In this document: piece by piece, positions 21-57,598 of the stretch
Numbering within the stretch: the first letter of the stretch is position 1
Layout of the letters: each line of letters starts with the position of its first letter
IMG/VR virus record: IMGVR_UViG_3300046463_000548
Span: 1-64,000 of that record
Source: a virus
Strand: one strand, 5' to 3'
DNA: 64,000 nucleotides
Made by a program: the position numbers and the translations under genes
The notes under the pieces: generated by a model
What the model was told of the DNA's origin: nothing
Seen by the model: only the letters and a program-made list of their open reading frames with translations
The model's database searches: none

Positions 21-491
21 ATGGAACTCAATGCAGGCTCCCGGCTGATCGAAGCCGCAACAGAGAAGCGACTTATTGGCGAGTACGTGACGAAGAACGG
101 GGAACCGGCAATCACGATCTATCAGGAAATCAATGATAAGGGTCGTGTTCAGTATCGCCCCGACATCATGCACGACAAGTTCAGTTGCCCGCCGTTTCAT
201 GACCGTTCCGACTATCGCGAAGTCTATACGAAGGTTACTGAGGAACTGAAGCGCAAGCGCGGCTGGAAGGCAGTCAAGCCGCTGCCCGAACACGAGCCGT
301 CAACGCACGTGGAGCCCACACGCTACGAATTCCACGTAGAGTTTCTGGACGAGAATGGGCGTTCGGGCAAGCTCGATCACGAGGTGAAGGCCCGTAATCG
401 TTTTGATGCCTTCACCGAATTGCTTCAGGGACTGAAACGCAGCGGTGGTATGGACGTGGTGCACCGCATCACCTGCACCGAGCACAAATAG
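21..491 (+). CDS. motif-tagged small protein 1 (unknown function)
   Basis: A 156-residue protein, first of ten adjacent genes sharing an N-terminal tag; here the tag reads MELNAGSRLIEAA. The body has two parts: residues 15-85, charged and containing a Ser-Cys-Pro-Pro stretch, and residues 100-156, which look like a small alpha/beta domain (YEFHVEFLDENG, then a basic helix). I do not recognise a family. The ATG is chosen because the tag starts there and AAGGCG lies just upstream. The end of an upstream gene (stop at 11-13) lies 7 bases before it. The tag suggests shared targeting or processing with its neighbours; that is inference. Confidence 0.8.
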   Translation: MELNAGSRLIEAATEKRLIGEYVTKNGEPAITIYQEINDKGRVQYRPDIMHDKFSCPPFHDRSDYREVYTKVTEELKRKRGWKAVKPLPEHEPSTHVEPTRYEFHVEFLDENGRSGKLDHEVKARNRFDAFTELLQGLKRSGGMDVVHRITCTEHK

Positions 492-499
492 AGGAAATC

Positions 500-811
500 A
501 TGAGCATCAAGATCAATGCTGCTGCGCGTCTGCTCGGTGCTTGGGATTTGTTCGAAGAGGTCAAACGCAAGAAGGCCGCGCGTGAATCACTAGCCGACAA
601 GCTGGTAAAGGAGTACGGCACGCACGGCTCTGTGGCGTTCAATCACCCTAGTGGACGTACGGCACTCGCCGGTCCTGATGCGTCGAAGCATGGTGGGTAC
701 CGTATCACCTGGTTCGATCATAGTGGACACCCAATCGGCCACGGCGAAAGACCAAACCTGCGTGAGGCTATCCTTGAGGCACTCAAGGAAGGATTCACAC
801 CCCAACATTAA
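500..811 (+). CDS. motif-tagged small protein 2 (unknown function)
   Basis: A 103-residue protein beginning MSIKINAAARLLGA, the tag shifted by two residues. A lysine-rich helix follows (residues 18-38), then a compact beta-rich part with YRITWFDHSGHPIG and a C-terminal helix. It starts 8 bases after the previous stop, with GAGGAAATC as ribosome binding site, so it is probably cotranscribed with the genes on both sides. Family not recognised. Confidence 0.8.
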   Translation: MSIKINAAARLLGAWDLFEEVKRKKAARESLADKLVKEYGTHGSVAFNHPSGRTALAGPDASKHGGYRITWFDHSGHPIGHGERPNLREAILEALKEGFTPQH

Positions 812-821
812 AGGAATTGTC

Positions 822-1142
822 ATGAACACGAAAATCAACGCAGCACAACGACTCACCGCCGCAGAGGATCACGTCGAAGCAATCAAGCAACTGGTCACCG
901 GCTACTTCGGTCCCAAGCACGTCGCAGGCGTTGAAGCAACCCACGGAACCGTGGTCACGGTGTATCTGAAAATGGGTGTGACCGTGAACGATCTGCAATG
1001 GCTTCTCCGGGAGTGCGGTGCACATACAGCCGGTGGAGTCGAAGTCCGACCGTCGCAACATTCAGGCACGGTTGCGATACTGGTGGATGCCGCGCACTAT
1101 CAGGCACCGAAGCACAACACGGGCCGCGAAGACCATCCTTAA
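822..1142 (+). CDS. motif-tagged small protein 3 (unknown function)
   Basis: A 106-residue protein beginning MNTKINAAQRLTAAE. The reading frame is open upstream to 651, but the ATG at 822 has AAAGGA in front and restores the tag to the N-terminus, so it is the preferred start. The body alternates strands and helices (VVTVYLKMGVTVNDLQWLL, then TVAILVDAAHY), a ferredoxin-like pattern. No family recognised. Confidence 0.78.
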   Translation: MNTKINAAQRLTAAEDHVEAIKQLVTGYFGPKHVAGVEATHGTVVTVYLKMGVTVNDLQWLLRECGAHTAGGVEVRPSQHSGTVAILVDAAHYQAPKHNTGREDHP

Positions 1143-1155
1143 TTCGGGGCTAGCC

Positions 1156-1440
1156 ATGGAACTTAATGCGAGCACGCGATTGTACGCGGCAAACCTCACA
1201 GAGAAGGCAGCGGAATTCCGCGCACTGTTGAAACAGAAGGGTCTCAAGGTGCGGACCCGCGTCGCACCGGGTGGCGGTCAGGTGCAGGTGATCGCGCCGT
1301 CCTACGCAGAGCCGTTCACCGACGAGCAGAAGCTGACCATCAACCAGTTGGCCGTAGACCTCGGATATGTTGGTGTTAGGGGCACTCCTATCAACGTGCA
1401 CGGTGGCGATTCCCATCAACTCAATTTCTATCCGGGCTGA
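1156..1440 (+). CDS. motif-tagged small protein 4 (unknown function)
   Basis: A 94-residue protein beginning MELNASTRLYAA. The frame is open upstream to 1018, overlapping gene 3, but the tag and a GGGG-containing leader place the start at 1156. The body predicts helix-strand-strand-helix-strand (FRALLKQKGLKV, GGQVQVIAP, DEQKLTINQLAVDLGY), a small alpha/beta fold. Function unknown. Confidence 0.78.
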   Translation: MELNASTRLYAANLTEKAAEFRALLKQKGLKVRTRVAPGGGQVQVIAPSYAEPFTDEQKLTINQLAVDLGYVGVRGTPINVHGGDSHQLNFYPG

Positions 1441-1448
1441 GTAACCAC

Positions 1449-1910
1449 ATGTCACCACTCGAAAACGTAAAGCGCCTGTATCTCGATTATCTCAATGCAG
1501 GGTTCAAGAAGGACGTGATCGCGCGAAAGCTGAAAAGTCAGTTTCCGGGTGCGAAGTTCACGTTCAAGGGTGCAACGCTGTACGTTGCATTTGGCCTCAA
1601 TCCGGAGCAGAAGGTGTTAGGTATGGAACTCAACGCAGCGCAGCGCTTGCAAGTCACAGCCTCCGACTACCATAAGCTGAAAGAACTCGCGAAAAAGTTC
1701 GAGCAGCAATTGAAGAAGGAGGGCGCTCCGGGCGTAGAAGTGACGTTCATCAGCGATGATGAAATCAACATCTTCAGCGAAGACAAGCACGCATTTGACA
1801 AGGCGAAGCAAGTCCTCAAGAAGGTGCCGGGTCTAACCTTCAGCAAGGAAGACGTGGACAACGATCCGGACTTTGACGGCCCGCAATATCACGCCTGGTA
1901 CAAGTTCTGA
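1449..1910 (+). CDS. motif-tagged protein 5 with internal tag (possible two-part protein)
   Basis: The frame encodes 153 residues from the ATG at 1449, but the family tag MELNAAQRLQVTA is internal, at residues 59-71 (codon at 1623). The first 58 residues (MSPLENVKRLYLDYL, then KFTFKGATLYVAFG) resemble a real small domain. The part after the tag has a lysine-rich helix and a strand-helix unit (VEVTFISDDEINIF). Either this is a 153-residue precursor whose tag marks an internal processing point, or translation begins at 1623 (AGGT directly upstream) and the upstream segment is a fused relic. Both starts are plausible. Confidence 0.65.
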   Translation: MSPLENVKRLYLDYLNAGFKKDVIARKLKSQFPGAKFTFKGATLYVAFGLNPEQKVLGMELNAAQRLQVTASDYHKLKELAKKFEQQLKKEGAPGVEVTFISDDEINIFSEDKHAFDKAKQVLKKVPGLTFSKEDVDNDPDFDGPQYHAWYKF

Positions 1911-1914
1911 TCAC

Positions 1915-1942
1915 TTGCACAATACGTCAATAGGAGTAAAAT
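1915..1942 (+). promoter_or_regulatory. sigma70-type promoter, inverted 16-bp element
   Basis: TTGCAC (1915-1920), a 16-base spacer and TAAAAT (1937-1942). The -35 region is the recurrent element in inverted orientation (TTGCACAATACGTCAA). It precedes the gene at 1979, so the tag cluster has an internal promoter. Confidence 0.7.
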
Positions 1943-1978
1943 ACTTCTGTTGACGGATAATTCATTGCGGAGAAGAAA

Positions 1979-2263
1979 ATGGAACTAAACGCAGCGCAAC
2001 GTCTGGTTGCTTCCGATGAAGGTGTTGCAGACCGCGCTTACACAGAAAAGAAGATCATGGACGGCACGTACAAGATCGTTGAGGGCAGGGGCCAGCGGTG
2101 GATGGCCGCACAAGTGCCGAATGGTCGTTTCGTCGTGCTCGACATGGAACGTGAAGGAAGCAATCTCTTGGCCACGGGTCTGGATCGCGATGCTGCAGTG
2201 AGTGCCGTCAAGATCGCAAACAAGACCGGCCAGTGGCACCCGACCCTGACGATGAAGCGTTGA
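1979..2263 (+). CDS. motif-tagged small protein 6 (unknown function)
   Basis: A 94-residue protein with the cleanest form of the tag, MELNAAQRLVAS. The body is a predicted beta-rich domain (YKIVEGRGQRWMAAQV, RFVVLDMEREGSNLLATGLD) ending in a helix. It is the first gene after the promoter at 1915 and is preceded by GGAGAAGAAA. Family not recognised. Confidence 0.82.
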   Translation: MELNAAQRLVASDEGVADRAYTEKKIMDGTYKIVEGRGQRWMAAQVPNGRFVVLDMEREGSNLLATGLDRDAAVSAVKIANKTGQWHPTLTMKR

Positions 2264-2273
2264 GGTAAAGGAT

Positions 2274-2465
2274 ATGGAACTCAACGCAGCCACACGACTG
2301 CTTGCACTGAGCTATGACGGCAACATCGGAATGATGGAGATGGTCAAGTTCTATAAGGTGGCGACACCGGAGCAGAAGAGCCTGATGCAATCCTTCCTCA
2401 GTAGCAAACAGTTTGCCAAGGGTTGGGAACTGCTCCAGGACGTGACCGGTGTCAAACTCAAATAA
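2274..2465 (+). CDS. motif-tagged small protein 7 (unknown function)
   Basis: A 63-residue protein, MELNAATRLLA followed by a mainly helical body (MMEMVKFYKVATPEQKSLMQSFLSS). The start lies 10 bases after the previous stop with GAGGTAAAGG upstream. The smallest member of the cluster; the tag is about a sixth of its length. Confidence 0.8.
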   Translation: MELNAATRLLALSYDGNIGMMEMVKFYKVATPEQKSLMQSFLSSKQFAKGWELLQDVTGVKLK

Positions 2466-2486
2466 CCTCAAACACTGTACCAATCT

Positions 2487-2762
2487 ATGACGACACTTAA
2501 CGCATCATCTCGACTGACTGCGGGTGCCCCTCACGACCGGCACCTGGAGAAGATCGTCAACGCGATCAACCACAGCGGCATCAAGGCCGCACACATCAAT
2601 TCGGAGGGTCAGGAAGTCGTGGTGAGTACCATGAAACCCTTCAACGTTCACATGCTTGGGAAGTTCGCTGAGCAAATGCACGTCGATCCGCAGCACATCA
2701 GCATTGAACTCGGTCACGGTGTCATCGAACTCCGTATTCCTGAGTTCGTAATCGGCAAGTAG
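2487..2762 (+). CDS. motif-tagged small protein 8 (unknown function)
   Basis: A 91-residue protein with tag MTTLNASSRLTAG. The body reads as alternating helices and strands (KIVNAINHSGIKAAHIN, EVVVSTMKPF, FAEQMHVDPQHISIEL, VIELRIPEF), consistent with a small ferredoxin-like fold. The ribosome binding site is weak; the start is set by the tag. Confidence 0.78.
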   Translation: MTTLNASSRLTAGAPHDRHLEKIVNAINHSGIKAAHINSEGQEVVVSTMKPFNVHMLGKFAEQMHVDPQHISIELGHGVIELRIPEFVIGK

Positions 2763-2770
2763 GTAGAAGA

Positions 2771-3022
2771 ATGACGGGACTCAACGCAGCCACCCGCCTC
2801 GTGGCATCCGAGCCACGACTGACGCGTCAGGAACTGTTTAAACGGGCCCGCGATAAGGGGTACAAGGTGACGGATAGGGGAACGCGTGTTTTCGTTACCC
2901 TGAACCGGTACACGTCGCTTGTGTTCTACGAAGACGGTTCGATCTTCTTCGCAGACATGGACCTATCGGCAGCAAAGAAAATCCCGCTGAAAGAAGCCTT
3001 TCGGATTTTGAAACTCCTGTGA
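2771..3022 (+). CDS. motif-tagged small protein 9 (unknown function)
   Basis: An 83-residue protein with tag MTGLNAATRLVAS. The body begins with a basic helix (LTRQELFKRARDKGYKV) followed by strands and a terminal helix, a layout seen in small nucleic-acid-binding domains, though no family is recognised. GTAGAAGA precedes the ATG, 8 bases after the previous stop. Confidence 0.8.
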   Translation: MTGLNAATRLVASEPRLTRQELFKRARDKGYKVTDRGTRVFVTLNRYTSLVFYEDGSIFFADMDLSAAKKIPLKEAFRILKLL

Positions 3023-3029
3023 GAAACCC

Positions 3030-3257
3030 ATGACTGAACTCAACGCAGCCACCCGCCTCGTGGCGACGGAAACCGAAAAGCCAGGTCATGGCGAAGTCGG
3101 CTCGCACGAGTATGAGAACTACGGCAAATACTTTCGTAGAGGTGATCTGGTAAAAGATAACTACGGCAAGTTACATACAGTGCGGGAGCATCGCGGCCCA
3201 CAAGTATTTTTTCAGGACGGGGGCTACGCCCACCCGTCGAAACTGCATCTAGCATGA
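3030..3257 (+). CDS. motif-tagged small protein 10, SH3/KOW-like body
   Basis: A 75-residue protein with tag MTELNAATRLVAT. The C-terminal part (FRRGDLVKDNYGKLHTV, then VFFQDGGYAHPSKL) resembles small SH3- or KOW-like barrels found in phage proteins; this is a resemblance, not a proven family. Last gene of the cluster, followed at once by a terminator. Confidence 0.8.
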   Translation: MTELNAATRLVATETEKPGHGEVGSHEYENYGKYFRRGDLVKDNYGKLHTVREHRGPQVFFQDGGYAHPSKLHLA

Positions 3258-3297
3258 AAGAAGCCCCGTTGAGAAATCTTCGGGGCTTTTTTTGTTT
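3258..3297 (+). terminator. rho-independent terminator after the tagged cluster
   Basis: Hairpin with arms AAGCCCCG and CGGGGCTT around a roughly 12-base loop, followed by a run of seven or more T. It closes the first transcription unit. Confidence 0.9.
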
Positions 3298-4017: not shown

Positions 4018-4215
4018 ATGGGCATACGGGCAAACAAGAATTCACCGCTGACCGTCCCAGAAGGGTACCGTGTGTATCAAACACTGGTAGGAACATGGCG
4101 ATGGTCGAAGGGCGTGTTCGGCACCTCAAACTGGACTGATGGCGAGAATCTCCCGAACGAAGATGCGGCCATCCGCGACGCAATTCGAGATGCGTCGGCC
4201 AAAGATACTTATTGA
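4018..4215 (+). CDS. small accessory protein, unknown
   Basis: A 65-residue protein beginning MGIRANKNSPLTVPEGYRVYQ, with several tryptophans (TWRWSKGVFGTSNW). Its stop codon lies inside the -35 box of the next promoter, so transcription units are packed without a gap. Function unknown. Confidence 0.68.
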   Translation: MGIRANKNSPLTVPEGYRVYQTLVGTWRWSKGVFGTSNWTDGENLPNEDAAIRDAIRDASAKDTY

Positions 4216-4239
4216 CGTTTTGTGCCGCCCCCGTATAAT
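4212..4239 (+). promoter_or_regulatory. sigma70-type promoter with the 16-bp element
   Basis: TTGACG (4212-4217), 16-base spacer beginning TTTTGTGC, TATAAT (4234-4239). The transcribed leader has CTTGTGGTTGAGAC, repeated after the promoter at 7696. Confidence 0.85.
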
Positions 4240-4740: not shown

Positions 4741-4748
4741 GATAGTTG

Positions 4749-4776
4749 TTGACGTTTTGTGCAGAAGGAGTACAAT
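4749..4776 (+). promoter_or_regulatory. sigma70-type promoter with the 16-bp element
   Basis: TTGACG (4749-4754), 16-base spacer with TTTTGTGC, TACAAT (4771-4776). It drives the toxin-antitoxin pair. The leader contains the inverted repeat ATCGTTTCT / AGAAACGAT just before the start codon, a possible operator or translational control hairpin. Confidence 0.82.
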
Positions 4777-5364: not shown

Positions 5365-5367
5365 TTG

Positions 5368-5396
5368 TTGACGGTTTGTGCGTCGATCTGTACAAT
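5368..5396 (+). promoter_or_regulatory. sigma70-type promoter with the 16-bp element
   Basis: TTGACG (5368-5373), 17-base spacer starting GTTTGTGC, TACAAT (5391-5396), followed by the leader TTCTGTTGGATGTGAAACG. Confidence 0.82.
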
Positions 5397-6902: not shown

Positions 6903-6909
6903 TCTGTTG

Positions 6910-6937
6910 TTGACGCTTTGTGCGGACGGGGTATAAT
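6910..6937 (+). promoter_or_regulatory. sigma70-type promoter with the 16-bp element
   Basis: TTGACG (6910-6915), 16-base spacer starting CTTTGTGC, TATAAT (6932-6937). The leader starts TTTTGTGGCAGGAC. Confidence 0.85.
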
Positions 6938-7690: not shown

Positions 7691-7695
7691 TTATG

Positions 7696-7724
7696 TTGAC
7701 GCTTTGTGCACAGGTCCGTATAAT
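7696..7724 (+). promoter_or_regulatory. sigma70-type promoter with the 16-bp element
   Basis: TTGACG (7696-7701), 17-base spacer starting CTTTGTGCA, TATAAT (7719-7724). The leader TTCTTGTGGTTGAGAC matches the one at 4212. Confidence 0.85.
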
Positions 7725-8665: not shown

Positions 8666-8672
8666 TTTACTG

Positions 8673-8701
8673 TTGACGTTTTGTGCGTCGTTCTGTACAA
8701 T
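8673..8701 (+). promoter_or_regulatory. sigma70-type promoter with the 16-bp element
   Basis: TTGACG (8673-8678), 17-base spacer TTTTGTGCG..., TACAAT (8696-8701). The leader begins GGGTTCTGTGG. Confidence 0.84.
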
Positions 8702-16828: not shown

Positions 16829-17122
16829 GGAGTACATACTACATTAGACGAACGCTGCGCTTGGGTGTCGTGTTGATGGTTTGTGATTCCGTGAAACACT
16901 TCGGGACCTAGCTGAAAACGGGCAAACGTTTGGCTATTCAGCGACTTGGCGCTAGGTCCTCAGTTTGTTTCACGGATTTGTCAGGAAATCCCTACGCGGA
17001 TCGAGCAAAACGGCTCGTTTTCTGGCCCAGCGCACGCGGAGCACAGCATTCGCTGGAAACTGTAGTGAATGCTACGTATTTTGTAATGACGAAATTCTCG
17101 GCCACCACTCGCGGAAAACGTA
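16829..17122. other. non-coding region between rep and the next cassette
   Basis: About 290 bases without a convincing gene. It holds the nested inverted repeat at 16888-16976 and, at 16873, a degenerate copy of the promoter element (TTGATGGTTTGTGATT) without a fitting -10 box. The stretch 17040-17120 shows nothing recognisable. Confidence 0.6.
16888..16976. repeat. nested inverted repeat with parS-like half-sites
   Basis: Outer arms of 11 bases, TCCGTGAAACA (16888-16898) and TGTTTCACGGA (16966-16976); second arms GGACCTAGC (16904-16912) and GCTAGGTCC (16951-16959); then GCTGAA / TTCAGC and the 10-base palindrome CAAACGTTTG (16923-16932). GTGAAACA and TGTTTCAC are the half-sites of the widespread parS sequence, here in everted order. 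It may be the centromere, part of an origin or a structured RNA. Confidence 0.6.
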
Positions 17123-17150
17123 TTGACGTTTTGTGCAGACGGCGTAAAAT
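17123..17150 (+). promoter_or_regulatory. sigma70-type promoter with the 16-bp element
   Basis: TTGACG (17123-17128), 16-base spacer with TTTTGTGCA, TAAAAT (17145-17150). The leader contains TTTGTCGGATGTGAACG. Confidence 0.82.
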
Positions 17151-40079: not shown

Positions 40080-42608
40080 ATGATCGTGCAACTGACTGCT
40101 GCAGGGCAGGCGCTGCTAGAAGGCAATACGGGGCCAGTGACCGTCACGAGTTTCCAGCTTGGTTCGGCATACGGATACGTGCCCGAAGCATCAGACACAG
40201 GCATTCACGGAACCCTGGTATATACGGGCGTCCCATCAGCACCTCTCGCAGTTTCAGCAAACCTTGTTGCGTACTCGTCGTATCTCGATTACGACTTGGG
40301 ACCGTTCGAGTTCGGAGAAATCGGACTGTACGTCGGCTCAACGCTGTTTGCTCTGGCAACGGGCTCCGCTCCGATTTCGAAGAGCGCACCGGCCGCCAAC
40401 ACCTCAGGCAACTCGATACGAATTGATGCGTATGTATCGGTCGTCGGAACGAACTATCAAATGTGGTTGAACCTGGCTGAGTCCAGCAACGCTTTCCAGA
40501 TGGCGGTGCTTACCTCGCCCGATCTGTTGCCGCAGTCTCATCAAGCTGTCCCGAACGCGTACATAATTTCGGGCGTAGTAAATAGTCAGTCAGCGTTTCT
40601 TGCGTACACGGATAAGTTTGGTCTGTGGAACTTCGACGCGTATCAGTACGGGTACCAGACGCATGCGAATGTAGTTACGTCGGATTCGCAGTCGGTAACG
40701 ATAGCGTTGGACCAGTTTGTGTCGCAAATGCAGCCGCAGTATTTCGGCCAAGTGATTCTTGAGTTCACGAGCGGCGCTCTGTACTCAGTGTGTCGATACG
40801 TTGAGACAGCGATTGTGTCCGGCAACTTCGTGACGCTCGGTTTCGACTCACCTATCGCAATGCAGCCTGCGGCGGGCGATACGTTCGCGACGTTTGTTCG
40901 AGTGGCCGATTCGGAAATTCCGCAGTTCCCAGCGGCAACGACCTCCGAACTCGGTGGCGTTATTGTTGGCGAGTATCTAACGGTGCAGCCGAACGGGCTG
41001 CTCGCGGTGGATGCCGCAGCGCTCCCATACCCGGTGACTTCGGTCAATGGGCTGACCGGCGCGGTGGTTGTGCAAGCGACGAATAACAATGCTGCTTCAG
41101 GCGTGTCGTTGATTTCGAACTCAGGCGCAACGACAGGCGTTATCAGGCTGAAGACTATCGTTGCGGGCACGAACATCACAATAGCGCCGGACTCAAACGG
41201 CAACCTGCTGATTTCGGATACGTATGCACTTCCGATTGCGAGCCTCACTACACTTGGTGGAGTGAAAGCGCCTAGCGACGGCAACATCACGATTTCGGCA
41301 ACGGGCGTTATCGATCTGGGATTCACGCCCGTCACGTCGGTTGATGGGATGAGTGGCGCTGTCACTTTGCCGTTGGCTACGGCTGCTGCTCCTGGACTCA
41401 TGCAGGTTGGTACCGGCCTGTCAGTTACCAACGGAGTCGTTTCACTGAGCGCTAGCTCTCTCGTTACATCGGTGTCGGGCCAGACTGGTGACGTTGTTGT
41501 GCAGGCGACTAACAACAATTCAGCAACAGGCGTTTCGCTGATCACTAACAGTGGATCGACTACGGGCAACATCAAGCTGAAAACGATAGTGGCAGGCACG
41601 AACATCACGCTTGCGACGGATGCGAATGGCAATTTGCAAATCAACGGTACAGCCTCTCCCTACACGCTGCCGGTAGCTACCTCAACAGTCCTTGGGGGTG
41701 TGAAGCAAGGGGCTGGTGTGAGTATCGCAGGCGACGGGACCATTTCGGTTTCCGGGGTCGTGACTTCGGTATCGGGGCAGAGCGGGACAGTGACCGTGCA
41801 GGCGTCAGATAACAATGCTGCTACGGGCACGTCACTCATTGCTAACAGCGGAGCGACGACGGCTAACATCAAGCTGAAGACTATCGTTGCGGGCTCCAAC
41901 ATCACGTTGGCGGCTGACGGGAACGGTAATCTGCAAATCAACAGCGCTGCAGCACCCTACACATTGCCTGTAGCCACCTCATCTGTGTTGGGTGGTGTCA
42001 AGCAAGGCGCGAACGTCACCATTGCGGGCGACGGCACGATCAGTGTTGCGGCCTCACCGGTCACGTCTGTAAATGGGCAGACGGGTGCAGTAACTATCCA
42101 AGCGGCCGATACGTCAACAGCATCGGGAACAACGCTGATTTCCGATAACGGTACGGGCACAGGAACCATCAAGCTGCGTCGCATAGTGGCGGGTGCGGGC
42201 ATCGCCGTAGCTGTGGATGGTAACGGCAACCTTCAGGTTAGTGTGGCCAGCCAGTACTACGACGTGCCACTTGGCATCGCAGGAATTCCGGGTGCCAGCC
42301 AGATTGTCGGTCAGTTCGTCGCAGTGCGAACGATGAACTTCGCATCTAACTTTGTTGGGTCCGCTGGTTTCGCGACAGCTTCCGCCACGGCAAGCACGAC
42401 GTTCACCATCAACCGTATTCGCTCAGGCGCAACAACGGCAATCGGTACTGTGGTTTATGCAGCCTCAGGCACTGCACCTACGTTCACGACGACGGGCAGC
42501 GCAACGCAGCAGCTAATAGCCGGTGACATTCTGCAAGCTGTGGCTCCTGCAACAGCGGATGCGACGTTGGCCAACGCGACATTCACTCTTCTCGCTACGG
42601 CGGCTTAA
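40080..42608 (+). CDS. tail fibre with collar-type N-terminus and tandem repeats
   Basis: An 842-residue fibre. Residues 1-270 (MIVQLTAAGQALLEGNTGPV, LGSAYGYVPE, DYDLGPFEFGEIGLYVGS) resemble phage tail-collar fibre domains. Then come about five repeats of a unit with TSVNGQTGAV, NNNAASG, SGATTGNIKL, IVAGTNITLA and PVATSSVLGGVKQGA, likely a triple-stranded beta shaft. The last 100 residues probably form a receptor-binding tip. The N-terminus is paralogous to the protein at 44193-46607. AGAGGC precedes the ATG. Confidence 0.87.
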   Translation: MIVQLTAAGQALLEGNTGPVTVTSFQLGSAYGYVPEASDTGIHGTLVYTGVPSAPLAVSANLVAYSSYLDYDLGPFEFGEIGLYVGSTLFALATGSAPISKSAPAANTSGNSIRIDAYVSVVGTNYQMWLNLAESSNAFQMAVLTSPDLLPQSHQAVPNAYIISGVVNSQSAFLAYTDKFGLWNFDAYQYGYQTHANVVTSDSQSVTIALDQFVSQMQPQYFGQVILEFTSGALYSVCRYVETAIVSGNFVTLGFDSPIAMQPAAGDTFATFVRVADSEIPQFPAATTSELGGVIVGEYLTVQPNGLLAVDAAALPYPVTSVNGLTGAVVVQATNNNAASGVSLISNSGATTGVIRLKTIVAGTNITIAPDSNGNLLISDTYALPIASLTTLGGVKAPSDGNITISATGVIDLGFTPVTSVDGMSGAVTLPLATAAAPGLMQVGTGLSVTNGVVSLSASSLVTSVSGQTGDVVVQATNNNSATGVSLITNSGSTTGNIKLKTIVAGTNITLATDANGNLQINGTASPYTLPVATSTVLGGVKQGAGVSIAGDGTISVSGVVTSVSGQSGTVTVQASDNNAATGTSLIANSGATTANIKLKTIVAGSNITLAADGNGNLQINSAAAPYTLPVATSSVLGGVKQGANVTIAGDGTISVAASPVTSVNGQTGAVTIQAADTSTASGTTLISDNGTGTGTIKLRRIVAGAGIAVAVDGNGNLQVSVASQYYDVPLGIAGIPGASQIVGQFVAVRTMNFASNFVGSAGFATASATASTTFTINRIRSGATTAIGTVVYAASGTAPTFTTTGSATQQLIAGDILQAVAPATADATLANATFTLLATAA

Positions 42609-42609
42609 T

Positions 42610-43542
42610 ATGTTTGCAATGAACTCTATGTGGTGGGGATCGGGGAAACCCCCGTTTCCTGCCTATAGCACGGGCGTGGGCATCTTCGGATCGAAGTTTG
42701 ACGCGATGATGAAATACGCGTTCACCAATAACGCGGTAGCCAATGGCACTGCGTTGGTATCCAACACCTTTGATGCTTCGGGCACTAGCACTCCGTCACT
42801 AGCGCTGTTTGCGGGCGGGCAAGATTCAGCCAACACAAAGATCGCAACGTCCTCGGTGTTGACGTTCGCTAGTGATTCGGTTTCTACGGGTGGCAACCTC
42901 AGGGTCTCGCGTGCACTGCCGAACAGTGTCGGCAACGCAACGATAGGCTACTTCGCAGGCGGTGATATTGGAACGGGCGGCTCATTCACTGGGTCTACGG
43001 CCGTTGACATCTACACGTATTCCAGTAACACATCAGCCTCAGGGACGGCACTGTCGCTGGGAATCAACGCATCAGCAACTTACGGCACTGCGACTATCGG
43101 TTACTTCTCAGGCGGTCAGGCATCCTCAGCTAGTCCCGCGTGGCAGGGTGCTACACAGAAATACACATACTCCAATAATTCGGCCACAACAGGAACCGCG
43201 CTGTCCGCAGTCAAGTCGTGGTGTGCAGGTATGAGTAACACCAGCCTAGGGATTATTGCGGGTGGTGGTAATTCGACGGGCGCGCTGGCGGTCACTGAGA
43301 AATACACCTTCGCTGGCGACGTTCGCACGCTTGGCACCAATCTTATGCAACCGCAATGGGGCGGAGCCGCTGCCGGAATAGCCTCGCTCGGTGTTGTAGC
43401 AGGGGGCGGTGCAACTGTAGGCAATGCCGCTGCCAAGACTTCGATCTATACCTATGCCGGTGACACTGTGGTCGGCGGTACTAATCTTCCCGCAGCCATT
43501 ACTTCCGCAACAGGTGTTTCGTCTACTCCGGGGCACTTCTAA
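42610..43542 (+). CDS. kelch-like beta-propeller repeat protein (virion surface)
   Basis: A 310-residue Gly/Ser/Thr/Ala-rich protein with five or six repeats of about 50 residues, each holding IYTYSSNTSASGTAL-like and ATIGYFSGG-like segments. The pattern suggests a kelch or beta-propeller surface protein, perhaps a fibre tip or receptor binder. The ATG follows the fibre stop directly. Confidence 0.72.
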   Translation: MFAMNSMWWGSGKPPFPAYSTGVGIFGSKFDAMMKYAFTNNAVANGTALVSNTFDASGTSTPSLALFAGGQDSANTKIATSSVLTFASDSVSTGGNLRVSRALPNSVGNATIGYFAGGDIGTGGSFTGSTAVDIYTYSSNTSASGTALSLGINASATYGTATIGYFSGGQASSASPAWQGATQKYTYSNNSATTGTALSAVKSWCAGMSNTSLGIIAGGGNSTGALAVTEKYTFAGDVRTLGTNLMQPQWGGAAAGIASLGVVAGGGATVGNAAAKTSIYTYAGDTVVGGTNLPAAITSATGVSSTPGHF

Positions 43543-43544
43543 TC

Positions 43545-44171
43545 ATGCACTATAAAACCAATCGACAGAACCATGATTTTCAGTTGGCATACTTTGTTGC
43601 CGGTTCGTGTAAAACACCCGATGCCGCTTGGTCTCTTCTATGCGACCTAAGGGATGATCGACAGGACGCGCTGAACCTGGCGAAGGCTGATTCGTTGCGC
43701 ACAGAAGCAAAGCGCATGCGTGCGCAAGCGATAGTGGACAGGAATGGTGTGACTGAAGCGGACAAGCTCGAAGCGCAAGCTGAATTGCTGGAAATTAACG
43801 GGTCGGCACAAACGACGCAGAAGAACATAGCGGCTGCTGAAGCCGAGCTTGCAATGATTCACAAGTTGCAGGAGCGTCTGCAACCGCTGCGTAAGTATGC
43901 ACACCTTCCGGACGCAGAAGCGCACGAGGCAGCGCAGGCTGAGGAATGGAAGCTCGAACTGATGTATCGAGCCGAGAATTTCATGTTGATGCAGGGTTCC
44001 ATACCGGTGGATCAGTTCGACACCATGCGTATGCACCCAGCGTTCACGACGGAGATTCTGCCGTTCCTGAACGAAATCCGTGCGCAGCTAGTTAATGTTC
44101 AAGGCGATCTGACGAAGCTCAAGTTTCTGACGCCAGCACTCGATATTCCGAAGCTGCTAGGCCACGCCTGA
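43545..44171 (+). CDS. helical protein, possible fibre chaperone
   Basis: A 208-residue protein. The middle is a long charged helix (DALNLAKADSLRTEAKRMRA, then EAQAELLEINGSAQTTQKNI), ending with a helical part (FTTEILPFLNEIRAQLVNVQ). It lies between two fibre genes and 2 bases after the kelch-like gene, so a fibre assembly chaperone or a hinge protein is possible. Not recognised. Confidence 0.66.
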   Translation: MHYKTNRQNHDFQLAYFVAGSCKTPDAAWSLLCDLRDDRQDALNLAKADSLRTEAKRMRAQAIVDRNGVTEADKLEAQAELLEINGSAQTTQKNIAAAEAELAMIHKLQERLQPLRKYAHLPDAEAHEAAQAEEWKLELMYRAENFMLMQGSIPVDQFDTMRMHPAFTTEILPFLNEIRAQLVNVQGDLTKLKFLTPALDIPKLLGHA

Positions 44172-44192
44172 ACAATCTAAAGGGGAATAATT

Positions 44193-46607
44193 TTGCTCGT
44201 TCAAATCACGAACGCGGGCGCAGCTTTGCTCGCAGCAAACTCAGGACCGATTGAACTGTCAACGTTCAAGCTGGGTTCTGCATACGGGTATATCCCGGAA
44301 TCAACAGACACGGATATTCACGGTACGCTCGTCAATACCGGTGCCCCTTCATCGTTCCAGGTGATTAACGCGAATGTCTTCAAATATTCCGTTTATCTGG
44401 ATTACGATCTTGGACCGTTTCAGTTTGGTGAGCTTGGACTCTTCACGACGGACGGTGTGCTGTTTGCGCTGGGTTCAAACTCGGTGCTCCTGAACAAGCA
44501 ACCCGAATCGGCGGGTGTGTTTTCGGGTAACTCGATTCGTCTCGATATCTATCTGTCGATTGTGGGTCAGAATTACGCGATGTGGTTGGACTATGCATCG
44601 TCATCCAACAATTTTCAGATGGCAGTCTTGCAATCAGTGGACAGCCTGCCGCCACCGCAGAGCGCAACGCCAAACGCCTACATCATCACGGGCGCGTCTT
44701 CGAGTCAGTCATCGTTTATGGCGTACACGTCGCAGACGGGACTCTGGAATTTCGACTGCTATCAGTACGCTAATCAGGCGGCTGCGACGGTCACGGCATT
44801 CACTCCCAATTCGATCACGATTTCGCAATCTCAGTATGTACCGGGAATGTCCCCAGCGTATCCGGGTGCGACGATCATCGAGTTTTCGAGCGGTGCGCTG
44901 TACGGGATTTGTCGCTACGTAGCGAACGTGACGTTGAGCGGCGGTAACGCAGTGCTCACGTTCGATACCCCGCTGATGCTGACACCGAAAGTAGGGGACA
45001 CGGTACTAGCGTTCGGGCGTCAGGCGCTGAGCACCACAATCCCTAACCTTCCGATTGCAACAACGTCATCGCTTGGTGCCGTGGTTGTTGGGGATACGCT
45101 GACGGTCACTTCAGGAGGTCTGCTGAACGTTAAGCCTACCTCTTATCCAGTGCTGTCGGTGAACGGTATGACGGGTGACGTTGTGCTGCAAGCCACCGAC
45201 ATTTCGGGCTTGGCGACTGTCGCAACGACCGGTTTGTATTCATCGCTTATCGGGACCCCGGCTCCGTACGCGTTGCCGGTCGCGACATCGTCAACGCTCG
45301 GAGGTGTGAAGGCTCCTTCAGATGGCAACCTGACGATTGGCCCCACCGGGATCATCGATCTTGGGTTCTCGCCCGTCAAGACTGTGAACGGCGGGTCTCC
45401 GGACGCGGCCGGAAATGTGGCGGTCGTGTTACCCGCTCCCGTGGGACTCGTTAACCCAACGGCCATTGATGCAGGCACCGACTTCAACACACTGAAAACG
45501 TGCGGCTTGTACTTCGGTCTGGATGCGAACGCTGCATCGTTTGTGAATGCGCCTTCGACAGCGGCGGGAGGCACGCTGGACATCGAGCCGTTCACAACAT
45601 CCGCAACTGGCGGTGACGTGATTCAGCGTTACCAGATGTCCAATGCGCTGTTTTTCCGGCGCTACACGCAAGCGTCAAACACGTGGTCAACCTGGACTCA
45701 GGTGTCAACGAGTTCTGCGCTTCCGATTGCGTCAGCTTCGACACTGGGTGGTGTCATGGTTGGGGCAGGACTGTCTGTTACAGGGGCGGGTGTGCTCTCG
45801 GCAAATGTTAAGAGCATCAACGGACAAACAGGAATCGTGGTGTTGGACGCGAGTTCAGTCGGTGCTCTTCCTTCAGATGTTGTGAACATTCCGGGCGGAG
45901 TGCCCTCGCTCGATATCAATACCGGGACTTCAAACCCCGATACCGACGCATACACGTATGGCCGGTTGCCGTTCTATCAGAACACCTTGGGCGACTGGTT
46001 CAATGCAGGGAAGTGGGATGCGTCAGCGAACCACGTGATCCAGTCACACACGGGCAACACGACAGCGGACACGAACACGTCACTGGTTTCCGGTGGACTG
46101 CAGACGATTGACATATCGTACAACGGCAAGGGTGTTACGGGTCTTTCCAATCCAGACTACGAGGCGGTCAACGCTGAGGGCATGGTCTATGAGGTGAGCG
46201 TCGCTGGAACCACAGCGCTGGATGGAATTAGCACGTGGAATGTGGGCGATTTGGCGGTGTGTATAAACGGCGCGTGGACTCGGATTCAGTCGGGCGCGGC
46301 TGCAAATTCGCTGACATCGAATAGCAGTTGGTATCGCACGAACCCGGACGGAACCTTGGAGATTGGTGGTCACCATGTAATGACGGCGGGTAGTACGACG
46401 ACGACTATAACGCTGCCTGTCACTATCGGTACCTATCTCAGCGGCTTGGTCACAGATATCGGCTCGGCCTGCTTCTCTGGAGGAATTGCGCCACTCAGTT
46501 CGACGCAAATCACGCTTTACGCACCTGCGTACTGGCTGGATAACACAGGGACTGCCGTTGCCCGTGGCGACTTCGATATGCAATGGCGCATCCTGGCTAA
46601 ACCTTAA
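44193..46607 (+). CDS. second tail fibre, paralogous N-terminus
   Basis: An 804-residue fibre starting at TTG. The start is supported by homology: MLVQITNAGAALLAANSGPI aligns with the start of the fibre at 40080, and AAAGGGG lies upstream. Residues 1-250 are collar-type (LGSAYGYIPE, DYDLGPFQFGELGLF). Repeats are fewer than in the first fibre; a C-terminal stretch (about 530-804) includes LNGISTWNVGDLAVCINGAW-type domains also found in the 51867 fibre. The two proteins may form different tips on one organelle. Confidence 0.85.
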   Translation: MLVQITNAGAALLAANSGPIELSTFKLGSAYGYIPESTDTDIHGTLVNTGAPSSFQVINANVFKYSVYLDYDLGPFQFGELGLFTTDGVLFALGSNSVLLNKQPESAGVFSGNSIRLDIYLSIVGQNYAMWLDYASSSNNFQMAVLQSVDSLPPPQSATPNAYIITGASSSQSSFMAYTSQTGLWNFDCYQYANQAAATVTAFTPNSITISQSQYVPGMSPAYPGATIIEFSSGALYGICRYVANVTLSGGNAVLTFDTPLMLTPKVGDTVLAFGRQALSTTIPNLPIATTSSLGAVVVGDTLTVTSGGLLNVKPTSYPVLSVNGMTGDVVLQATDISGLATVATTGLYSSLIGTPAPYALPVATSSTLGGVKAPSDGNLTIGPTGIIDLGFSPVKTVNGGSPDAAGNVAVVLPAPVGLVNPTAIDAGTDFNTLKTCGLYFGLDANAASFVNAPSTAAGGTLDIEPFTTSATGGDVIQRYQMSNALFFRRYTQASNTWSTWTQVSTSSALPIASASTLGGVMVGAGLSVTGAGVLSANVKSINGQTGIVVLDASSVGALPSDVVNIPGGVPSLDINTGTSNPDTDAYTYGRLPFYQNTLGDWFNAGKWDASANHVIQSHTGNTTADTNTSLVSGGLQTIDISYNGKGVTGLSNPDYEAVNAEGMVYEVSVAGTTALDGISTWNVGDLAVCINGAWTRIQSGAAANSLTSNSSWYRTNPDGTLEIGGHHVMTAGSTTTTITLPVTIGTYLSGLVTDIGSACFSGGIAPLSSTQITLYAPAYWLDNTGTAVARGDFDMQWRILAKP

Positions 46608-57313: not shown

Positions 57314-57598
57314 GTGAGAGTCGAAGCTGCAAACCGACTTGCCGCAGACGTACTGATGAACAATGAAAACGTGACTGTTGGATTTGATGAAAGCCGGGTA
57401 GGGCAGGTGCATGAGCTAGAGGGTTCCTCTGAACTGCCGATCTATCCGCTTCCTCAGGGACACAATCTGGACGACGGTGTGCTGAAGACGGGCATCGACT
57501 GTGATCCGGAGATGGCACCTATCGAACCCGTGAGCGATCCGGGAGTGCCTGAGCTAAACGCAGCGGCCCGCTTGGCAGCAGCGACACCGAATATCTAA
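57314..57598 (+). CDS. protein with the family tag at both ends
   Basis: A 94-residue protein with GTG start behind GAAGGGGG. The N-terminus MRVEAANRLAAD is a version of the tag seen in genes 1-10, and the C-terminus PELNAAARLAAATPNI holds an almost perfect copy. Between them is an acidic, proline-rich linker (GSSELPIYPLPQGHNL). It lies among virion genes, which fits an association of the tag with virion assembly. No other function is evident. Confidence 0.72.
   Translation: MRVEAANRLAADVLMNNENVTVGFDESRVGQVHELEGSSELPIYPLPQGHNLDDGVLKTGIDCDPEMAPIEPVSDPGVPELNAAARLAAATPNI

Follow-up and report, generated by a model that had tools for sequence, protein, structure and literature searches.

Why should ten adjacent genes, whose products otherwise share no detectable relationship, begin with the same short peptide? 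The question is raised by positions 21–3257 of the window, the 64,000-nucleotide stretch analysed here, which represents bases 1–64000 of a 153,706-base virus contig (IMG/VR record IMGVR_UViG_3300046463_000548). A first-pass annotation of the letters alone had described ten adjacent genes there for small proteins of 63–156 residues, each with a common N-terminal tag in front of an unrelated body, and this description proved accurate: the motif [LI]-N-A-[AGS]-x-R-L, starting at residue 3–5, is present in 10/10 open reading frames (ORFs), the lengths are correct, and the best all-against-all blastp match among the bodies has an E value of 0.33. Comparison with related phages leads us to consider it likely that the tag is a capsid-targeting peptide of this jumbo-phage clade, bringing proteins into the head whether or not it is then cleaved. 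The ten genes are given below, with identities to relatives on G002, a 32.7-kb IMG/VR contig from a close relative.

Gene 1: 21–491, plus strand, 156 amino acids, tag MELNAGSRLIEAA, motif at 27–53; start at the contig edge.
Gene 2: 500–811, plus strand, 103 amino acids, tag MSIKINAAARLLGA, motif at 512–538.
Gene 3: 822–1142, plus strand, 106 amino acids, tag MNTKINAAQRLTAAE; G002 relative 37% identical.
Gene 4: 1156–1440, plus strand, 94 amino acids, tag MELNASTRLYAAN.
Gene 5: 1623–1910, plus strand, 95 amino acids, tag MELNAAQRLQVTAS; G002 relative 79% identical.
Gene 6: 1979–2263, plus strand, 94 amino acids, tag MELNAAQRLVASD; G002 relative 44% identical.
Gene 7: 2274–2465, plus strand, 63 amino acids, tag MELNAATRLLALS; G002 relative 76% identical.
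Gene 8: 2487–2762, plus strand, 91 amino acids, tag MTTLNASSRLTAG.
Gene 9: 2771–3022, plus strand, 83 amino acids, tag MTGLNAATRLVASE; body matches phrog_12911 (unknown function), E 6.8e-5.
Gene 10: 3030–3257, plus strand, 75 amino acids, tag MTELNAATRLVATE; weak likeness to DUF4222, E 0.0034, below the Pfam cut-off.

A mechanical ORF listing gives gene 5 as 1449–1910, which puts the tag at residue 59; because its G002 relative begins at the tag, the start is likely at 1623. Since position 21 lies at the contig edge, the cassette may be longer than ten genes.

Given the cassette's own composition, a single protein would carry the motif by chance within its first 12 residues with a probability of about 5e-6. 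When all six frames of the 153.7-kb contig are translated, only one site outside the cassette has the strict motif, position 57554, at the C-terminal end of the ORF given next. A 12-residue tag profile that scores the ten tags at 25–33 reaches a maximum of 12 on reversed proteins. The same profile scores 24 at the C-terminus of the following ORF.

57314–57598, plus strand: 94-amino-acid ORF with a GTG start, tag-like at both ends (MRVEAANRLAAD... at the start and ...ELNAAARLAAATPNI before the stop).

This ORF is the positional counterpart of gp275 of Burkholderia phage BcepSaruman, which is likewise tag-like at both ends. The portal region of the contig is closest to BcepSaruman and BcepSauron, then to Achromobacter phage Motura, and blastp shows gene order along most of it to follow that of BcepSaruman between about 100 and 210 kb. 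The bodies of the ten window proteins gave no confident family in Pfam, PHROGs or NCBIfam, near-identity DNA searches and tblastn with these proteins against annotated phages found no convincing relatives, and a single-protein scan with gene 9 found nothing.

A shared start of this kind might have arisen by repeated duplication of one gene start onto different genes, the peptide itself being functionless, an alternative that the first-pass annotation had raised. The tag DNA of genes 9 and 10 is nearly identical (CTCAACGCAGCCACCCGCCTCGTGGC), which indicates some recent copying of starts; most tags, however, differ at synonymous sites (one Arg is written CGG, CGT, CGA or CGC) and in their flanking residues, genes 3 and 6 keep 7/9 tag residues relative to G002 orthologues that are only 37% and 44% identical over the whole protein, and the same positions are kept on unrelated families across many phages. 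Because the bodies are unrelated and the tag codons vary synonymously, we attribute the conservation to selection on the peptide and regard functionless duplication as very improbable. We give almost no credence to an effect on translation or stability rather than location (a start-region coding preference, a degron or chaperone docking): the tag does usually stand at the very start of the gene and is rich in Ala and Lys, but its amino acids are conserved while its codons are not, C-terminal and internal copies exist, and only a subset of genes, associated with the head/tail block, carries it.

The first-pass annotation had proposed a motif search in related large phages, and this found the tag to recur within one clade on 189 non-redundant N-terminally tagged proteins, 179 of them outside the window, in BcepSaruman/BcepSauron, Motura and uncultivated relatives. 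These cases give the consensus [KQE]-[IL]-[NEQ]-A-A-x-R-L-x-A-[AST], so that the motif extends beyond the RL noted earlier to RLxA followed by a small residue. Ala occupies the last position of RLxA in 136/189 proteins (72%) relative to 7.8% in the bodies, a figure that may be somewhat inflated because several of the analysed regions were selected for pattern matches and the selecting pattern included this Ala. The residue following this Ala is S, T, A or G in 89/136 cases (65%), against 26.5% in the bodies; Glu replaces the Ala in 9/189, and gene 1 (RLIE) is among these exceptions. In the AlphaFold model of gene 5, residues 1–13 have a predicted local distance difference test (pLDDT) score below 50 and a folded body with secondary structure H-E-E-H-E-E runs from residue 13, while in that of gene 6 residues 1–14 score below 50 and the body fold differs from that of gene 5; in these models, then, the tag is predicted to be separate from the folded cargo body. 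Foldseek searches with the two models returned no match at E ≤ 0.001.

In BcepSaruman the tagged proteins are gp077, gp092, gp094, gp251, gp275 and the Nudix protein gp100, whose start Met serves as the first tag residue; Motura has a dozen or more within 113–145 kb, and its tagged proteins include gp158–163, gp168, gp170, gp171, gp175–177 and gp197; and G001, a 215-kb uncultivated phage, has about twelve within 41–65 kb. Scanning viral contigs for the capsid protein gave 69 loci, 40 of which had N-terminal matches to a loose regular expression, with 106 matches on the capsid strand and 12, mostly not tag-like, on the opposite strand. At the DNA level, 14 tagged records held 85 pattern matches on the strand of the capsid gene, 2 on the opposite strand and 6 in the control, whereas 8 records with more diverged capsid proteins held 1 match versus 3 in the control; some contigs are closely related, so the counts are not fully independent of one another. 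An unbiased search for four-residue N-terminal patterns recovered the tag as the commonest, in up to 12 of 27–30 genes in 20 kb, compared with 2–3 genes in an internal control, and found nothing comparable in diverged relatives. The tag itself was not found in the more diverged phages PaBG, Lu11, Peetri, Yoloswag, PhiXhv-12 and GR7B, and a search of PaBG, Lu11, Peetri, Yoloswag and GR7B within about 31 kb around the capsid gene found no other common start.

Where they occur, tagged genes are grouped on the same strand as the major capsid gene, within or adjoining the head/tail module. The block encoding capsid, sheath, tail tube and prohead protease (30–56 kb in BcepSaruman) lies off our contig, and G002 bridges the gap to it. 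Gene order on G002 runs scaffold, virion protein, capsid, sheath, tagged gp077 homologue, tail tube, tagged gp075 homologue, gp074 homologue and then a tagged-gene cassette, four genes of which are orthologues of window genes 6, 7, 3 and 5; the genes after it match the window region downstream of our cassette. From this order, the window cassette most likely closes the structural block. A prohead maturation protease is annotated in BcepSaruman (gp085) and Motura (gp185), and a homologue is present in G001.

This arrangement bears on a reading in which the tag docks its proteins at some place within the infected cell, such as a replication or assembly centre, a membrane patch or a phage-encoded hub, where they would act during infection, unpackaged. 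Linear motifs that work N-terminally, C-terminally and internally are typical of docking peptides, and the tag occurs C-terminally, at both ends or internally in the window ORF 57314–57598, in BcepSaruman gp275, gp094 and gp077, and in Motura gp172. A promoter-like element ahead of gene 6 also resembles those of the neighbouring small-gene region.

1915–1949, plus strand: promoter-like element TTGCAC-N17-TAAAAT between genes 5 and 6, a member of a family repeated in the window.

Against docking, all 14 of the 14 tagged records associate the tagged genes with the capsid-gene strand and the head/tail block, the G002 cassette stands at the end of the structural block, and the tagged enzymes are of types that fit known or predicted injected classes. 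We therefore judge intracellular docking unlikely and continue with capsid targeting as the preferred reading.

What the tagged bodies are was addressed by family scans of 128 tagged proteins as a batch together with individual scans. Most have no confident family. Among the remainder we found DUF3175 (six in the batch and two in BcepSaruman, best E 1.8e-14), Nudix (four in the batch and one in BcepSaruman, 1e-14), SprT-like (three, 2e-11), GNAT (three, 9e-5) and saccharopine-dehydrogenase-like proteins (two, 1e-23), members of a PHROG of host-transcription-inhibiting kinases (three, 2e-21), Ser/Thr kinases (two) and, from Motura, a single RMF-like protein (1.7e-5, slightly short of the Pfam cut-off). 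A tagged ADP-ribosyltransferase (ART) of the Alt/VIP2 type in G001 matches ADPrib_exo_Tox (PF03496, E 2e-28) and a PHROG of Alt-like RNA polymerase ARTs (2.4e-7); none of the ten window proteins matches the ART exoenzyme family in Pfam or PHROG scans. The recognisable bodies thus appear, from their family matches, to be host-takeover enzymes, several of them typical of injected phage proteins, and among the genes inspected sheath, tube and capsid proteins carry no canonical tag. Two further sets of candidates were set aside: Motura gp174, gp175 and gp177, in which LYR, SFS and E-x-E motifs of ARTs were read by eye, were confirmed by no family model and are not counted, and Motura gp162 matches rifampin-ART at E 0.18 only, though the match begins directly after the tag.

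It is also conceivable that the tag serves the assembly of minor structural proteins of the virion, in the head core, neck or head–tail joint, and that its bearers remain in the particle and are not effectors. The genes for gp077, gp092, gp094 and gp251 do adjoin tube, sheath, connector and portal genes, and some tagged proteins, such as gp094, carry two tags and include extended acidic regions that are probably disordered. Structural parts would not be expected to vary as strongly among phages as the cassette content does, nor to have bodies matching ART, Nudix, kinase and GNAT families or an RMF-like protein, and we consider this reading quite improbable.

The suggestion that the tag acts like the capsid-targeting sequence (CTS) of phage T4 can be made more precise. 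In T4, unrelated proteins enter the prohead core by way of their CTS peptides, which gp21 removes; foreign proteins fused to a CTS are packaged, and Alt is cut at both ends (PMC9026906). As on T4 IPI, IPII, IPIII and Alt, the peptide described here is N-terminal, of about 10–13 residues, and stands on unrelated bodies, namely small proteins plus an ADP-ribosyltransferase, in phages that encode a prohead protease; the processing of Alt at both ends is paralleled by proteins tagged at both ends. The sequence differs, however: the tag ends in RLxA plus a small residue, and the T4 cleavage motif L/I-x-E is not conserved there. Unlike the CTS, the tag also occurs C-terminally and internally, and it sits on many more proteins (up to about 12 genes per 20 kb). 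The first-pass reading of packaged effector proteins gains strong comparative support from the 189 proteins, the head/tail location on the capsid strand, the enzyme bodies and the folded body behind the tag. As the T4 cleavage motif is not conserved and no sequence relation was seen, we describe the tag as CTS-like in its presumed action and do not class it as a member of the T4 system; the tagging principle is known from T4, and on the best reading this tag is analogous to the T4 CTS without being homologous to it. No description of the tag was found in the searchable literature, most subscription papers being outside its reach.

Other systems show partial likeness. Salmonella phage SPN3US, with its cleaved head and ejected proteins, is also a jumbo myophage in which a prohead protease matures head cargo, yet the available part of its description reports cleavage after A-x-E in propeptides and mentions no short tag on a cassette of unrelated small proteins (PMC10052503). 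ARTs and Nudix proteins have been inferred to be head-packaged in myophages, where as Alt/VIP2 proteins or MuF and portal fusions they represent the same enzyme families beside head genes and are predicted to be injected (PMC9503650); packaging there was deduced from fusion to head proteins or from gene position, whereas here it would be signalled by a short portable tag.

Within the clade, the capsid protein itself offers a comparison. Its propeptide is likely to end at VFA↓S, VTA↓A, ITA↓S or a similar site (↓, presumed cut), and the alignment of residue 5 in the capsid chain of phage G with residue 73 of Motura fits such a boundary. These presumed sites and the tag have in common V/I/L at P3, Ala at P1 and Ser/Ala at P1′, and because the boundary ([VIL]xA↓[SA]) resembles RLxA↓[STA] we propose that the prohead protease cleaves after RLxA, a proposal to which we would give about even chances. 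The capsid N-terminus, M..K[VI][KQ][VI][RQ]A[SA][KR]TPxVAASE[FY], likewise resembles the tag, but it has a conserved TPxVA where the tag has RLxA and a propeptide of about 68 residues, and the likeness could be chance or convergence.

Under capsid targeting, the flexible short tag would bind the scaffold or the interior of the immature capsid and draw unrelated cargo into the head, the prohead protease would probably cut after RLxA to free the cargo, and the cargo would enter the cell alongside the DNA, there to modify host functions or block defence. The tag itself, where it occurs, its separation from the folded body, its tie to the head/tail genes and the enzyme types that follow it come from computation; the binding partner, packaging, cleavage and injection, as well as the individual functions of the ten window proteins, are what we infer within this scheme. 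A broader version, which we hold only tentatively, is that the tag is a general capsid-loading code of the clade, a linear motif that the scaffold or the inside of the capsid would recognise at either protein end, possibly derived from or mimicking the capsid N-terminal arm, so that new effectors could join by gaining about ten codons.

Several points weigh against capsid targeting. C-terminal and internal tags are not needed by a simple N-terminal prepeptide model, and their occurrence means that the tag is not simply such a prepeptide. It is not obvious why a saccharopine-dehydrogenase-like enzyme with the tag should be an injected effector, and proteins of the gp077, gp075 and gp094 types may be minor structural proteins instead of effectors. 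The proposed cleavage site derives from composition and a single alignment of the capsid with that of phage G, and sites with Ala/Ser occur commonly. No virion proteomics for these phages was found in the searchable literature. Finally, the timing of expression of genes 6–10 is uncertain, since the promoter-like element at 1915–1949 is common to the downstream small-gene region.

That element was not picked up by a generic sigma-70 scan. Its family consists of TTGACGnTTTGTGC followed by GTATAAT, with a similar leader ahead of the next ATG, and has 13 matches at ≤3 mismatches versus 0.21 expected. An intrinsic terminator that likely ends the cassette was read by eye; the terminator scan missed it because that scan permits loops of 3–8 only.

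3261–3293, plus strand: likely intrinsic terminator, AAGCCCCG ... CGGGGCTT with a T-run and a loop of 12.
1915 and 3305, plus strand: promoter-like copies, inverted version.
4210–4227, 4747–4764, 5366–5383, 6908–6925, 7694–7711, 8671–8688 and 17121–17138, read on the plus strand: promoter-like copies.

Some further observations stand apart from the argument. Immediately 5′ of gene 5, 58 in-frame codons (1449–1622, MSPLENVKRLYLDYLNAGF...) could be either a separate small gene fused by stop loss or an alternative start that would place the tag inside the protein; nothing corresponding was seen ahead of the G002 homologue. In several proteins the tag is followed by a second element, W[FW]xxLSxxxQxxYLxxHPxSKYA (BcepSaruman gp075, the tagged ART of G001, Motura gp172), which also occurs untagged in PhiXhv-12 (L020:23896-24276) and may be another packaging or head-binding module; the loci listed for it are as follows.

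L036:758-1240: second element.
L036:6690-7433: second element.
L011:32569-34296: second element.
L037:10406-11470: second element.
L042:1456-2583: second element.

Tagged saccharopine-dehydrogenase-type enzymes at L117:12380-13792 and L120:3461-4897 are possibly homospermidine synthases; a polyamine enzyme with a head-targeting tag would be unexpected. Elsewhere in the window, two ORFs (40080–42608 and 44193–46607) both match the BcepSaruman tail-fibre gene gp287 and enclose a kelch-protein-like ORF and a gp109-like ORF, so that 40080–46607 may be a receptor-binding module that is duplicated or exchangeable. Terminase and DNA polymerase had seemed to be split at 100 and 120 kb of the contig, but this was an artefact of sequence-piece boundaries.

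In the untagged relatives (L019–L024), the capsid propeptide boundary and the C-terminal region of the scaffold have a V-x-T-A-S site in common (Lu11 QVATASS in both, Peetri QVETASA and QVTTASF, GR7B scaffold QVATASL), which makes it a candidate for the specificity of the prohead protease. Among serine peptidases, the SH superfamily includes the herpesvirus protease. LNA↓SSRLA presumably resembles the herpesvirus assemblin maturation site, a likeness that we keep as a lead and do not use as evidence. The jumbo-phage prohead protease has been assigned to the SH superfamily (PMC7824862).

If capsid targeting is correct, the proteins that giant phages of this clade carry in their heads and inject would be readable from sequence, uncultivated phages included. 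About 180 candidate injected proteins, mostly of unknown function, would then form a defined list in which to look for anti-defence and host-takeover activity. The tag would also be a second, independently evolved capsid-targeting tag beside that of T4, and would offer a route to what the head interior recognises.

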